Source of the DNA: Candidatus Avelusimicrobium luingense
GTDB taxonomy: Bacteria; Elusimicrobiota; Elusimicrobia; Elusimicrobiales; Elusimicrobiaceae
Direction: 5' to 3'
NCBI GenBank assembly: GCA_900315845.1
Contig: OOHK01000002.1
Span: forward strand, 1 to 64,000
DNA: 64,000 nt
Position 1 is the stretch's first letter. Each line of letters begins with the position of its first letter. The notes beneath the pieces are model-generated. The model was not told where the DNA came from. It ran no database searches and worked only from the letters and a program-made list of their open reading frames with translations. This document shows positions 15,971 to 20,829 of the stretch, one piece after another. The position numbers were made by a program, and so were the translations under genes.

Positions 15971-16720
15971 ATGGTGTGGATTCATCTAAAGACGCTGTTT
16001 TCATTTCATTTTTACCACCGGCTTATTTTGACTACGCGGTGGCAAGTAGTAGGTTTTGTGGTCTATTTGTGGCTGTTATCCGTACTTGTATTTTATGGAT
16101 TTGCCAATGGCCTTGTAAAAAAGAATCTATCTGCTTTTTTGAAGAATTTTCCGGAAGTAACTTTTGAAAAAGGAGTATTAACCGCACCGAAAAACACCGT
16201 TTTTGTTCCGTTGCCGGGGAGCGATTTCAAAATTGCTTTTGATGCAACGCGCCAAACGCCCCCCAGCAGCGAGGAATTGATACGAGAAAATATATTGGCA
16301 CTGGTGTCATCAAACACCGTATATATGCCCGGTTCCGGCCACGCGCAACAACGGACACTCCCCCCTACATTGACAGTCACAACCACGCAAGAATTTTTAA
16401 ACACGCACACTGATTTTTTGGTGGCCAGCCTTACGGCTACCATCTTAATGGCGGCTTGTTTTTTAATTCCGTTTGTTATGCTGTTTGATTTTTTTCTCGC
16501 GCTATCTGTTATTACGTTTTTCTCTCTTTGGACGCGCCGTCTTTTACCGCGGCATATTACCTTGCGTTGGGCAGTATTTTTACAAGGGCCGCTGGCCATA
16601 TTATGGTACGCACGGTTGTGGTATGATATTCCGCTTTTTATGTGGGCACAAGTATTTTTATGTATTATTTATGTTCAGCAGATTTTTAATCTTATCCCGG
16701 AGAATAACAAATGCGCATAA
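15971..16720 (+). CDS. DUF1189-like membrane protein
   Basis: The 249-residue protein has one membrane segment near residues 25-45, an extracytoplasmic region with FPEVTFEKGVLTAPKNTV (resembling the 'P...f.dG.l' segment of DUF1189 proteins), and several C-terminal membrane segments (about residues 147-175, 195-215 and 220-240). The family's function is unknown. The ATG coincides with the expected transcription start. The stop overlaps queD by 10 bases, making it the first gene of the operon. Confidence 0.65.
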   Translation: MVWIHLKTLFSFHFYHRLILTTRWQVVGFVVYLWLLSVLVFYGFANGLVKKNLSAFLKNFPEVTFEKGVLTAPKNTVFVPLPGSDFKIAFDATRQTPPSSEELIRENILALVSSNTVYMPGSGHAQQRTLPPTLTVTTTQEFLNTHTDFLVASLTATILMAACFLIPFVMLFDFFLALSVITFFSLWTRRLLPRHITLRWAVFLQGPLAILWYARLWYDIPLFMWAQVFLCIIYVQQIFNLIPENNKCA

Positions 16721-17055
16721 AACTGATTCGTTCCTTTAGTGCGGCCCACCGTTTACCGAATTATCAAGGCCCTTGTCACGATTTACACGGTCATACATGG
16801 AAAGCCGTTTTTGTATTGGAAGGGCCTGTAAAAGAAGACGGCATGGTGTGCGATTTTAAGGTCGTTAAAAAACTACTGGACGGCTTTTTGCCCGACCACC
16901 AATTTCTAAACGATATCGTGCCGAACCCGACGGCTGAAAATTTAGCGCAATTTTTATTTGACACAATCAGCGCGGAACTTAAGAAACAAAATTTAACCTT
17001 AAAAACCGTTGAAATCTGGGAGAGCGACAATGCCGCAGCCATCGTGGAAGGTTAA
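16711..17055 (+). CDS. queD: 6-carboxy-5,6,7,8-tetrahydropterin synthase (QueD)
   Basis: QueD converts 7,8-dihydroneopterin triphosphate to 6-carboxytetrahydropterin in queuosine synthesis. The 114-residue protein has the zinc site FSAAH plus HGH and the catalytic Cys four residues before it (CHDLHGHTW), the pattern of PTPS-I/QueD. The catalytic DH pair (LPDHQFLND) and a late Glu (EIWESDN) are present. GGAG precedes the ATG. It overlaps queE by 26 bases. A divergent paralogue with a different active site is fused to folK at 19894. Confidence 0.92.
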   Translation: MRIKLIRSFSAAHRLPNYQGPCHDLHGHTWKAVFVLEGPVKEDGMVCDFKVVKKLLDGFLPDHQFLNDIVPNPTAENLAQFLFDTISAELKKQNLTLKTVEIWESDNAAAIVEG

Positions 17056-17623
17056 CGAAATTTTTTATTCTATCCAAGGTGAAGGCCGCCATAGCGGTAT
17101 GCCGGCGGTATTTTTGCGTTTGGCGGGGTGCAGTATGGGGTGCGCATGGTGCGATACCAAGTATGCTTTTTCCGCCGGGCAAGAAATGAACAATTTACAA
17201 GTGCTCGTAGAATTAGCGAAATTCCCGTGTAAGACGGTGATAATTACCGGCGGGGAACCGGCCGAGCAAGATTTACCCGCGTTAATTGCATTATTAAAAT
17301 CGGCGGGGCATATAGTACATATTGAAACAAACGGCGCGCACGATTGTGATATCAGCCGCGCCGATTTTGTATGCGTTTCGCCCAAAAAATACGTCAGCGA
17401 AAACATGCTTAAAAAAGCCGATGTAATCAAACTCGTCGTTAATGAACAAACCGACTTAGAAGATTTGCAAAAATACTATAATTACGAAAACGAAAAAACA
17501 ACCGTTTATTTACAACCCGAAAGCAATAAAGAGGAGAACATCAATCTATGCGTAAAACTGGTAAAAGAACATCCGTCCGCTCGACTAAGCGTGCAACTGC
17601 ACAAACTTATCCACATAAAGTAA
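17030..17623 (+). CDS. queE: 7-carboxy-7-deazaguanine synthase (radical SAM, QueE)
   Basis: QueE rearranges 6-carboxytetrahydropterin to 7-carboxy-7-deazaguanine. The 197-residue protein starts WKVNEIFYSIQGEGRHSGMP, the QueE signature, followed by the radical-SAM cluster motif CSMGCAWCDTKYAF and a GGEPA segment. The ATG at 17030 is chosen for its GGGAGAG RBS and the family N-terminus. It overlaps queD upstream and folE downstream, which implies tight co-expression. Confidence 0.93.
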   Translation: MPQPSWKVNEIFYSIQGEGRHSGMPAVFLRLAGCSMGCAWCDTKYAFSAGQEMNNLQVLVELAKFPCKTVIITGGEPAEQDLPALIALLKSAGHIVHIETNGAHDCDISRADFVCVSPKKYVSENMLKKADVIKLVVNEQTDLEDLQKYYNYENEKTTVYLQPESNKEENINLCVKLVKEHPSARLSVQLHKLIHIK

Positions 17624-18168
17624 GCGAAGAAAAAATGTTGCAAAATTTACGTGAAATGCTCGCCTATATCGGCGATGATCCCGCACGGGAAGGATTGCAA
17701 GAAACCCCCAAACGCATTGTAAAAAGTTGGAAAAAATTATTCGGCGGCTACCAACAAAAACCGCAAGATGTGTTAAAAACCTTCGTGGAAGGCTCTTGCG
17801 AAGAAATGGTGGTACTCAAAGATATTGAGTTTTACTCCACGTGCGAACACCACTTACAACCCTTCTTCGGAACAATCAGCATTGGGTATTTGCCCAACGG
17901 ACGCGTACTCGGGATTTCCAAATTAGCCCGGTTGGTGGAAGTGTTTGCACGGCGGCTGCAAATTCAGGAAAAACTCGTTGCACAAATTGCCGATAGTTTA
18001 ATGGAAACTTTACACCCGCACGGCGTAATGGTCGTATGCAAAGCCAAGCACATGTGTATCAGTTCGCGCGGCATTGAAAAGCACAACGCTGTTATGGTAA
18101 CGAGTGCGATTCGCGGAGCATTTAACAAATTAGAAGTACGCAGTGAGTTTTTAGAAATGATTAAATAG
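17548..18168 (+). CDS. folE: GTP cyclohydrolase I
   Basis: FolE converts GTP to 7,8-dihydroneopterin triphosphate, the shared precursor of the queuosine and folate branches encoded around it. Zinc ligands are visible in CEHHLQPFFG and CKAKHMC, and the motif GISKLARLVEVFARRLQ is present. The 206-residue frame includes a basic N-terminal tail of about 29 residues. An alternative ATG at 17635 would give a protein beginning MLQNLREMLAYIGDD, nearer the family core. GAGGAG before 17548 makes me prefer the longer form only slightly. Confidence 0.92.
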   Translation: MRKTGKRTSVRSTKRATAQTYPHKVSEEKMLQNLREMLAYIGDDPAREGLQETPKRIVKSWKKLFGGYQQKPQDVLKTFVEGSCEEMVVLKDIEFYSTCEHHLQPFFGTISIGYLPNGRVLGISKLARLVEVFARRLQIQEKLVAQIADSLMETLHPHGVMVVCKAKHMCISSRGIEKHNAVMVTSAIRGAFNKLEVRSEFLEMIK

Positions 18169-18177
18169 GAGTTGCGC

Positions 18178-19104
18178 ATGAAAAAAACGCTATTGGCCCT
18201 ATTTCTTGGTTTAGTATGCGGCAGCGCGTTCGCGCAAACTTTTACCGCGGATACTTCTTTGGTTTTTAGTCCTACTCAAAAACAAAAAGAAAATTTTTAT
18301 ACCAAACTGCCGCCCCCCGTATTAGCCGTTTATCAAAAAGACGGGAAAACACTTGTGTTGTTAGCCGCCTCTCACGGGCCAAAGTCTATCCCGGCCGTAC
18401 AATATGCGTTTGATATGTATTACCCGCAAATAGCATTGATTGAACGGGAACCGGGCCAACCGTTAGGTAATTGTTCGATGATGGAAGACGGTTATACAGC
18501 CGCTTTGAGTGCCCAGCATCATATTCCGCTTGTACGTAACGATGCCGATTTGGAACATCAATGGAAACATGTGCAGCAACAGGGGTTTTCATACGAAGAT
18601 TTCCAAATGCTTTGGATACTTCGCAGTGCTTATGCGCTGGCTACCCAAGAAGGGAAATCAACCAATGCTGCCCAAGAAATCAAAGATTACAAACGCACGA
18701 TTCATAATCCTGCATGGGGCGAATTATTTACCGAAGAGCGCTTACTTGCCTATTTTCAACAACATTATAATAAGGACTTTAACACTACCGATTTTGTGCA
18801 GTTGTACCAAGATTTAATGAACCGATTTCCCCAAAAATGGGTCAAGCAAACACCTTTCTACCAAATCCATGCACAAGACCGTGTATATCGTAGTGTGTTT
18901 ATGTTGGAAAACATAGCCGCCGCACTTAACGAGTATCAAGTGGTATTTAGCGAAATGGGCGCCGGACATTTTATAGAAATTTCCAAAGCCCTTAAAAAAA
19001 TGTTAGGGAAACCGCACTATATTACAGCAGACCACATTCCCCCGCAAACCTTGTGGGAAGAGTGCAATTTAGAGGGCTTGCAAGAAAAAACACTCATACA
19101 ATAA
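18178..19104 (+). CDS. secreted TraB/ChaN-like (EreA/ChaN fold) protein, tentative
   Basis: A signal peptide (MKKTLLALFLGLVCGSAFAQ) leads a 308-residue protein. LLAASHGPKS near residue 60, IALIEREPG about 30 residues later and a late EMGAGHFIEISKAL resemble the GxxH, Glu and 'GAxH' motifs of TraB/PrgY/ChaN-type proteins. The similarity is recognised by eye and is weak. AGGAG precedes the ATG. It sits between folE and folP with gaps of 9 and 1 bases, so it is co-transcribed although a role in pterin metabolism is not obvious. Confidence 0.5.
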   Translation: MKKTLLALFLGLVCGSAFAQTFTADTSLVFSPTQKQKENFYTKLPPPVLAVYQKDGKTLVLLAASHGPKSIPAVQYAFDMYYPQIALIEREPGQPLGNCSMMEDGYTAALSAQHHIPLVRNDADLEHQWKHVQQQGFSYEDFQMLWILRSAYALATQEGKSTNAAQEIKDYKRTIHNPAWGELFTEERLLAYFQQHYNKDFNTTDFVQLYQDLMNRFPQKWVKQTPFYQIHAQDRVYRSVFMLENIAAALNEYQVVFSEMGAGHFIEISKALKKMLGKPHYITADHIPPQTLWEECNLEGLQEKTLIQ

Positions 19105-19105
19105 T

Positions 19106-19897
19106 ATGCCGCAAATCTGGGGAATTATTAACGCTACGCCGGACTCATTTTACGACGGAAATCCGCAAAACACGCCGGATACGCTAATCACGCGCGCGCA
19201 AGCGTTTGTGCAAGCGGGCGCAGATGCGTTAGATATCGGCGGAGAGTCCACCCGCCCCAATGCCACCCCCATTAACGAACAGGAAGAACTTGCCCGCGTG
19301 ATACCTTTATTAAACGCGTTGCGCGCGCACTATAAAGGACTTCCGCTTTCATTAGATACGCGCCACGAATCTGTGGCCGCAAAAGGGCTTGCAAACGGTG
19401 CTACCATTATCAACGATGTCAGCGGCAACCCGACAAGCGAATTATTTTCACTTGTAAAAAAGTACGACGCGCAACTTGTTTTAATGCACACGCGCGGCAC
19501 GCCGCAAACCATGCAAACGCAAACCGATTATAAAGATTTGCTCGGCGAAGTAAAAGATTTTTTAGCCGAAAAAATTTCGCAGGCACAGGCGGCCGGGTTG
19601 GTTAAAGAACAACTGATTATTGATGTAGGTTTTGGCTTTGCCAAAACACGCGCACAAAATTATGACTTGCTAAAACACTTAAAATTTTTTAAGAATTTAG
19701 GAGTACGGTTGTTAGTGGCGCTTTCGCGTAAAAGTTTTTTAAGCCAACCGGAAGACTCACCACAAGACCGCTTGCCGCAAACACTCGCGGCGCATTTTAT
19801 TGCGCTGGAGCAAGGGGCAGATATATTACGCGTGCATGATGTTAAAGAAACACGTCAACTGATTACGTTTTATAACGAATGGGAGAACATAAAATGA
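19106..19897 (+). CDS. folP: dihydropteroate synthase
   Basis: FolP condenses 6-hydroxymethyldihydropterin pyrophosphate with p-aminobenzoate. The 263-residue TIM barrel shows GIINATPDSFYDG, GADALDIGGESTRPNA, SLDTRHESVAAKGLANGATIINDVSG, LMHTRGTPQTMQ and DVGFGFAKT, all DHPS signatures. It follows the TraB-like gene by one base and overlaps the next gene by an ATGA stop/start. Confidence 0.95.
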   Translation: MPQIWGIINATPDSFYDGNPQNTPDTLITRAQAFVQAGADALDIGGESTRPNATPINEQEELARVIPLLNALRAHYKGLPLSLDTRHESVAAKGLANGATIINDVSGNPTSELFSLVKKYDAQLVLMHTRGTPQTMQTQTDYKDLLGEVKDFLAEKISQAQAAGLVKEQLIIDVGFGFAKTRAQNYDLLKHLKFFKNLGVRLLVALSRKSFLSQPEDSPQDRLPQTLAAHFIALEQGADILRVHDVKETRQLITFYNEWENIK

Positions 19898-20829
19898 AAA
19901 AAGTTCACTTAACCCAATGCGGCAACTTTACCGCACGCCATAGCCACGATGGCATTTTAAATGAGCCATCGCACGCACATCAATTTTCATATCAAGTTAC
20001 ATTTTACGGACCGCTTAATGATGAAGGGTTCTTGATTGATTTTCGTGAAGTGCAACAATTTTTACAAACGCATATCAACGATTACTTAAACCACGCCGAT
20101 TTGAATGCACTTTTTCCTTATCCGACGACGGAACACCTGGCCATTTGGATCTTTGATGCGGTGCATGCCAAATTTCCGCAACTGGTCCGTGTGCGCGTAG
20201 CCGAAGCCCCCGATCGTTGGGTAGACTATGAAGAAAATTCATTTCAAAACAATGACGAGCCCACGTTGGCCCCGTATGAACCGATACCCACTATTGATTT
20301 AGCCTTGCCCACGCCGGAAGACACCGTAGAACCCACGCAAGTGCTTATCGGTATAGGCAGCAATATTGCTCCTGCTAAAGAGCATGTGGATCAAGCCATT
20401 GCCGCGCTGTCGCAAGTAGGGGAAGTGAAACAAATATCCCCTTATATTGTTTCCGAGCCGGAAGGATTTGCCGACCAACCGGACTTCATCAATGCGGTTG
20501 TCTTGCTGGAAACTACCTTTGCTCCGTTGGCCTTACTAAAAAAATTAAAAGCGTTAGAAACGCAACTCGGGCGCACCAAAACATTTCCTAACGGGCCGCG
20601 TGTCATTGATTTAGACATCTTATTATATGGGGACAAAGTACTCTTTGAAGATGATGATGAATTTCCGCTTTTTATTCCGCATCCGCGTTTAGCCGAACGG
20701 GAATTTGTATTAAAACCGCTTTCTTATATAGTGCCGGAATGGGAGCATCCGCAACTAAAAAAACCCATTTATCGTCTATATCGCGAACTTATGAAAAAAA
20801 AGGGTACACCAACTTGCAAGATATTGTAG
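19894..20829 (+). CDS. folK: fusion: 6-pyruvoyltetrahydropterin-synthase-like (PTPS-III type) domain + HPPK (FolK)
   Basis: Residues 1-120 or so form a PTPS/QueD-like domain: FTARH and HAH give the three zinc histidines, LNHADLN keeps the catalytic His, and VAEAPD the late Glu. The QueD cysteine is absent; a Glu stands three residues before the first His (EPSHAH), the pattern of PTPS-III enzymes that replace FolB. Residues 150-311 are HPPK: LIGIGSNI, QPDFINAVV, GPRVIDLDILLYG and IPHPRLAEREFVLKPL. The fusion would take FolE product to hydroxymethyldihydropterin and then pyrophosphorylate it for FolP. The linker is acidic and Pro-rich. The ATG at 19894 has a GGGAG RBS and overlaps the folP stop. 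Confidence 0.9.
   Translation: MKKVHLTQCGNFTARHSHDGILNEPSHAHQFSYQVTFYGPLNDEGFLIDFREVQQFLQTHINDYLNHADLNALFPYPTTEHLAIWIFDAVHAKFPQLVRVRVAEAPDRWVDYEENSFQNNDEPTLAPYEPIPTIDLALPTPEDTVEPTQVLIGIGSNIAPAKEHVDQAIAALSQVGEVKQISPYIVSEPEGFADQPDFINAVVLLETTFAPLALLKKLKALETQLGRTKTFPNGPRVIDLDILLYGDKVLFEDDDEFPLFIPHPRLAEREFVLKPLSYIVPEWEHPQLKKPIYRLYRELMKKKGTPTCKIL

Follow-up and report, generated by a model that had tools for sequence, protein, structure and literature searches.

The window analysed here comprises the first 64,000 nucleotides of contig OOHK01000002.1 (assembly GCA_900315845.1) from Candidatus Avelusimicrobium luingense, and it carries a set of queuosine and folate synthesis genes that includes a fused gene (table 1). 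As the earlier note had read from the DNA, a PTPS domain with the motif EPSHAH and a full HPPK are encoded by one uninterrupted frame. Pfam matches PTPS at residues 20-114 of the protein with 68.1 bits (cut-off 22.4) and HPPK at residues 152-280 with 118.5 bits (cut-off 25.7), the TIGR01498 folK model gives 121.6 bits (cut-off 54.1), and the FolB domain PF02152 has no Pfam match within the protein. In a full-chain AlphaFold2 model built on an alignment of 38 relatives, the T-fold part reaches a pLDDT of ~95 and the HPPK domain is confident, with linker residues 127-141 falling below 50, i.e. predicted to be disordered. The PTPS domain modelled alone (pLDDT 95.3) matches QueD/PTPS structures in Foldseek with TM scores of about 0.82-0.88, the HPPK half matches HPPK structures with target TM scores of 0.80-0.89, and the whole-chain model is matched best by the Streptococcus pneumoniae FolB-HPPK protein, 2CG8. 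The fused frame is not a product of chance, since it is found again in five other species, with 64-73% identity, and dN/dS is low in both domains (about 0.05-0.16 in both halves among the fusions, 0.06-0.10 in the PTPS half); both halves are thus under purifying selection.

Table 1. The fused gene, its parts and the genes upstream of it, in window coordinates.
Feature	Position	Strand	Remarks
DUF1189 membrane protein gene, head of the conserved block	15971..16720	+	PF06691; same place in relatives
queD, PTPS-I, CHDLHGH, without Glu	16711..17055	+	PF01242 105.7 bits; falls in the QueD clade of the family (f1)
queE, 7-carboxy-7-deazaguanine synthase	17009..17623	+	TIGR04322 146 bits (below the cut-off of 200); conserved gene order
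folE, GTP cyclohydrolase I (makes dihydroneopterin triphosphate)	17548..18168	+	TIGR00063 230.7 bits
folP, dihydropteroate synthase	19106..19897	+	TIGR01496 294 bits
folP stop and fusion start overlapping as ATGA	19894..19897	+	4 nt
PTPS-III-like/HPPK fusion gene	19894..20829	+	311 aa, no internal stop
N-terminal PTPS (T-fold) domain, residues 1-115	19894..20238	+	Pfam PF01242; AlphaFold2; Foldseek
H16 (predicted first zinc His) and H18 (extra His)	19939..19947	+	invariant in 28/28 orthologues
E24-P-S-H27-A-H29, Glu where QueD has its catalytic Cys, plus two predicted zinc His	19963..19980	+	E24, H27 and H29 invariant in 28/28
T78-T-E80, aligned with the substrate-recognition S/T-T-x-E of PTPS	20125..20133	+	T78 and E80 invariant
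E104, putative pterin-anchoring Glu (E161 of Plasmodium PTPS by equivalence)	20203..20205	+	invariant
Interdomain linker, residues 119-143	20248..20322	+	middle part predicted disordered; length varies strongly among fusions
HPPK (FolK) domain, residues 152-280	20347..20733	+	core GPRVIDLDIL and IPHPRLAEREF retained

The overlap with folP and the placement in an operon with folE, both claimed before, are borne out by the coordinates, and the gene order DUF1189-queD-queE-folE-folP-fusion, in some genomes with a 310-aa secreted protein between folE and folP, is common to the relatives. The close relatives are Elusimicrobiaceae MAGs from the rumen and other animal guts. Apart from DUF1189 and OmpA, the conserved block, as queried with the window proteins, yielded genes of folate and queuosine synthesis only. 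Across the family the block reads DUF1189-queD-queE-folE-folP-[PTPS-III]-folK, with an unfused PTPS-III gene between folP and folK; the free-standing version in G022 encodes a domain with 79% identity. It is folK, rather than queD or queE, that the PTPS-III gene adjoins throughout the family, and in g3 (G034) the PTPS-folK pair is separate from the queD block. Genera g1 and g2 combine a QueD lacking Glu with an additional PTPS gene that has Glu only and is situated between folP and folK. In G127, another member of the family, a single hybrid PTPS (CEALHGH) occupies the queD position in a block of the form DUF1189-queD-queE-folE-folP-folK, and there is no second PTPS. The 310-aa protein of the window (18172-19104), which has a signal-peptide-like start, has no Pfam match and a weak hint of TraB (E 0.054); a counterpart lies between folE and folP in G075, and none was recognised in the other relatives read.

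Folate genes with and without FolB in Elusimicrobiota

The bypass of FolB by PTPS-III enzymes has been known since 2007-2009, and the genome shows the setting in which such enzymes are found, folate genes without FolB. Checked family by family, the assembly (1.46 Mb, 94.5% complete) has no match to FolB (PF02152), so that the lack of folB noted for the window extends to the whole assembly; a folB elsewhere in the genome, which the earlier note had named, in combination with loss of activity in the fusion, as evidence that would count against its reading, was found neither here nor in any other genome sampled from the family. The transaldolase-type FolB2 likewise has no match in this 94.5% complete genome and was rejected as the substitute. 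Exactly two PTPS genes are present, queD and the fusion. FolC is found beside FolE, FolP and FolK, and FolA-type dihydrofolate reductase (PF00186) has no match in the same 94.5% complete genome, which leaves the last step of the pathway unaccounted for by FolA.

A survey of 248 genomes sampled from the phylum, including the family of the window (f1) and its sister family (f2), places these observations in a broader context. FolB occurs in 33 of the 248, all of which belong to f3 or f5-f10, families in the class of the window, with three matches below the family cut-off, and in none of the genomes sampled from f1, f2, f4 or f12-f25. None of the 33 FolB-bearing genomes has a Glu at position -3 of HGH, all of them possessing a PTPS without it, whereas Glu at -3 of HxH is carried by 96 of the 97 genomes read that lack FolB but match HPPK (scored, outside the class, by match to the fusion protein). 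In f2, which lacks FolB, Glu and HPPK occur together in 20 genomes, Glu without HPPK in three, HPPK without Glu in none and neither in 11 (Fisher p 1.3e-6, a value that overstates independence, because only three independent pairs lie on well-supported branches); in the tree-aware count the independent pairs never point in the opposite direction. This distribution, with no Glu beside FolB and with its loss in most genomes that have given up HPPK, amounts to a natural test of the role of Glu, and indicates that Glu follows the need for the FolB step and not ancestry alone. The sole exception is G069 (f6, L190), a 99% complete genome with HPPK and with neither FolB nor a Glu-bearing PTPS, which may be a candidate for yet another FolB substitute in the phylum. 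A separate observation concerns f5 (L130, L131, L132), where a FolB match below the cut-off adjoins queD and is probably a divergent FolB.

In the other classes of the phylum, genomes without FolB typically have a single CExxHGH enzyme, with a motif known from PTPS-I/III hybrids (PMC5041015). In the family of the window, the two roles appear to be split: a true QueD with CHDLHGH in the same operon had been pointed out before, together with a division of roles between the paralogues, and this pattern holds family-wide, QueD having Cys without Glu and the PTPS-III-like protein or fusion having Glu without Cys. Judged from these motifs, the pattern fits a division of labour between PTPS paralogues after the specialised gene had arrived. 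One phylum would then apparently hold four routes to 6-hydroxymethyldihydropterin, i.e. FolB, a CExxHGH enzyme doing two jobs, PTPS-III beside QueD, and PTPS-III fused to HPPK. PTPS-III beside QueD is also seen in f4 (L119, L121, L123, L272, L279, L282), with the motif DEPLHGH.

Origin and active site of the PTPS-III-like domain

The earlier note had regarded a position within QueD as evidence against its reading, and the tree places the domain outside: it belongs to a clade of its own with support of 100/99, and the QueD proteins of the family form a separate clade (100/98). The nearest relatives of the PTPS-III-like clade are, weakly (74/92), PTPS-III proteins of candidate division WOR-3. 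A tree constrained to an origin by duplication of QueD within the family is not rejected (AU p 0.27), though the free tree sets the clade apart. Relatives of the domain on viral contigs are only ordinary Cys-type PTPS/QueD, and no plasmid record covers the fused protein.

These results bear on the notion that the N-terminal domain makes 6-carboxy- or 6-pyruvoyltetrahydropterin, as a further, diverged QueD or as a PTPS-II, and was joined to folK merely because the genes were neighbours. The best NCBIfam match of the domain is indeed still TIGR03367 (QueD), and the gene block does contain queD and queE; however, the score of 41.6-44.2 bits is half of the cut-off of 89.25, the catalytic Cys is missing, a canonical QueD is encoded in the same operon, and the domain forms its own clade and keeps company with folK across the family. 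We consider this explanation very improbable.

Conservation was scored on an alignment of 28 members of the clade, extending down to about 42% identity. The motif of the fusion, N23-E24-P-S-H27-A-H29, has no Cys at the QueD position, and H16, H27 and H29, the zinc triad as predicted from sequence, are invariant in 28/28. The zinc histidines and the Glu of PTPS-III have been described for Plasmodium PTPS (PMC2229834), the motif with Glu being known from PTPS-III enzymes and from Glu38 mutants of the Plasmodium protein (PMC2229834; PMC5041015). The substrate-recognition S/T-T-x-E has been described for the Plasmodium and rat enzymes, and the pterin-anchoring Glu (E161) for that of Plasmodium (PMC7546909). 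The clade departs from these enzymes in other respects. The HGH of the published ExxHGH motif is missing, the window protein having HAH and none of the 28 members having the Gly; the middle residue is A, E, T, P, S, N, D, K, R or Q, so that the deviation singled out by the earlier note is real in the window protein but not peculiar to it. The absence of HGH is our reason for filing the clade as a divergent PTPS-III-like subgroup. The Asp-His pair, a feature of PTPS-I and PTPS-II and found elsewhere as LDHxxLN, is not kept either: the window protein has N66-H67, His occurs in four of the 28, and Asp and His together in none. In Plasmodium PTPS the His of this pair, H80, is kept and has been called catalytically important (PMC7546909). 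Another lineage with an altered pair is the PTPS-III of f4, in which Tyr replaces the His (xxYKNxN).

A second histidine, H18, is by contrast invariant in the clade, in a position where the remaining PTPS enzymes of the alignment mostly have Leu or Val. The AlphaFold2 model places residues 16 and 18 on a single strand, as it does 27 and 29, and strand geometry, as distinct from model coordinates, puts 16 and 18 on one face. From this geometry we infer that H18 shares the face of strand 1 with the predicted zinc ligand H16 and hence lies near the zinc site. With the Asp-His pair not conserved and a new invariant His two residues past the first zinc His, the base/acid chemistry has probably been rearranged in the clade, which would make it an example of a PTPS-type enzyme that apparently manages without the accepted Asp-His part of the mechanism. 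A bolder proposal, which we hold tentatively and at somewhat under even odds, is that the clade is a PTPS-type lyase of a kind apart whose active site has been rebuilt, with the Asp-His pair given up and H18 acting in its stead beside Glu24, and that its fusion to HPPK is a convergent copy of FolB-HPPK.

The losses of the HGH Gly and of the Asp-His pair might alternatively mean that the PTPS-like domain is catalytically dead and aids HPPK folding or pterin binding, with some other enzyme replacing FolB; G069 does keep HPPK with neither FolB nor a Glu-bearing PTPS. Such a reading is hard to reconcile with Glu24, Glu104 and the three predicted zinc ligands all staying invariant at identities as low as about 42%, with the low dN/dS of the PTPS half given above, or with the domain being a free-standing gene in most relatives, and we regard it as highly unlikely.

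Proposed function

The interpretation we favour, with a probability of roughly 0.85, is that the fusion is a divergent PTPS-III-like enzyme that replaces FolB and supplies 6-hydroxymethyldihydropterin to its own HPPK domain. The grounds for the PTPS-III role are the replacement of Cys by Glu, the absence of FolB, the conservation of the residues, the tracking of the folate pathway by Glu, and the gene order. Going by family assignment, FolE would make dihydroneopterin triphosphate, HPPK would use ATP to add pyrophosphate, and FolP, whose gene directly precedes the fusion, would add pABA. Between the first two of these steps, comparative evidence suggests that the PTPS-III-like site removes the side chain from a phosphate of dihydroneopterin, most probably the triphosphate, leaving 6-hydroxymethyl-7,8-dihydropterin, so that the domain would stand in for FolB and for the phosphatase step preceding it. 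Glu24 would act as the base where QueD uses its catalytic Cys, with His16, His27 and His29 holding the zinc and Glu104 anchoring the pterin, and the separate QueD of the operon would serve queuosine only. What we infer here is the chemistry, its substrate and whatever advantage the fused form may bring.

Several known systems resemble the fusion in part. Like it, the PTPS of Plasmodium falciparum and P. vivax (1Y13, 2A0S) has Glu in place of Cys, retains the zinc His triad, occurs where FolB is absent and makes a product for HPPK (PMC2229834); unlike it, the Plasmodium enzyme has the motif FRETLHGH, keeps H80 and stands alone, and the domain of the fusion differs further in its HAH, a shorter loop and the extra H18, with a structure-based identity of 13-14%. 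In bacterial PTPS-III and PTPS-I/III hybrids, Glu likewise stands at -3 from the second zinc His, the genes cluster with those for folate, and FolB is replaced, as far as the work of Pribat et al. 2009 is relayed in PMC4224340 and PMC5041015, but their published motif is ExxHGH and not HAH (PMC5041015). The best profile match among solved structures (E 3e-20) is PH0634 of Pyrococcus horikoshii (2DJ6/2DTT), which also has Glu at -3, no Cys (HWEDVHGHTF) and PTTEN, but keeps HGH and the Asp-His pair (LDHRNLN), and whose function is not assigned in its record.

That the nearest solved structure by sequence profile is this archaeal protein lends some credit to a different substrate, i.e. dihydroneopterin or its monophosphate, cleaved in an aldolase-like manner after a phosphatase, as proposed for some archaeal members; the substrate of some archaeal PTPS-III may be the monophosphate (PMC5041015), and the active site of the fusion is unlike that of characterised PTPS-III. 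On the other hand, the triphosphate is the substrate of the PTPS-III enzymes known from bacteria and Plasmodium (PMC2229834; PMC5615194), and no phosphatase was recognised in the conserved block, a comparison that was queried with the window proteins only and that an extra phosphatase in relatives would escape. We judge this variant unlikely, though distinctly less so than a dead domain or a second QueD, and retain the triphosphate as the probable substrate of the PTPS-III-like site.

Age and spread of the fusion

The fused gene occurs in at least six of the 66 species of the genus (G000, the genome of the window, and G255, G256, G253, G025 and G075), six being a minimum that leaves G249, G252, G266 and G267, with open frames of similar length, outside the reading. 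Four further candidates with open-frame lengths of about 285-363 aa (G016, G234, G242, G257) were rejected, their DNA showing a PTPS stop and then an in-frame folK start; as the stop directly precedes that start, they are one substitution away from a fusion. G067 was also discarded, having a stop after the PTPS part as well as masked bases. The six fused species form one clade with two unfused ones (100/98). A single fused clade is not rejected (p 0.33), and on these trees either one fusion followed by two splits or several fusions are possible.

The fusion is, in any case, young and rare in the genus, and it is therefore not needed for the bypass of FolB. The earlier proposal that the fused enzyme may carry folate synthesis past the FolB step is supported by the comparisons, with the qualification that the fusion itself is dispensable. 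A further suggestion was that the product is handed from one active site to the next. Two consecutive enzymes are indeed fused, in the same order as in S. pneumoniae FolB-HPPK, and channelling of 6-hydroxymethyldihydropterin from the PTPS site to the HPPK site would be a compatible addition to the reading favoured above; however, the two proteins are separate in most relatives, two unfused species lie inside the clade of fused ones, and the linker varies strongly in length between the fusions and is predicted to be disordered at residues 127-141. Channelling thus seems doubtful.

A literature search, conducted mostly without access to subscription papers, returned no description of a PTPS-HPPK fusion. 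The closest parallel in architecture is the FolB-FolK protein of S. pneumoniae (2CG8), likewise a tunnelling-fold maker of 6-hydroxymethyldihydropterin placed N-terminal to HPPK. FolB is an aldolase that acts on dihydroneopterin without zinc. The T-fold domain of the S. pneumoniae protein is a true FolB, whereas the fusion described here has PTPS, and because the two domains come from different families the two architectures look convergent. FolK-FolP and FolK-FolC fusions also join HPPK to a folate enzyme, but one of a later step.

Within the fused gene, G025 and G075 (L004, L005) differ by a dS of 0.29 in the PTPS half and 1.57 in the HPPK half, an inequality that suggests recombination inside the gene. 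The FolK-FolC form is found in f2, where folK of G220 (L115:1156-3123) is fused to folC in one 656-aa ORF (TIGR01498 129.5 bits, TIGR01499 260.3 bits) and the folK ORFs of the other f2 genomes are also long, at 545-672 aa (L288-L292); folK thus has a different fusion partner in each of two related families, f1 and f2.
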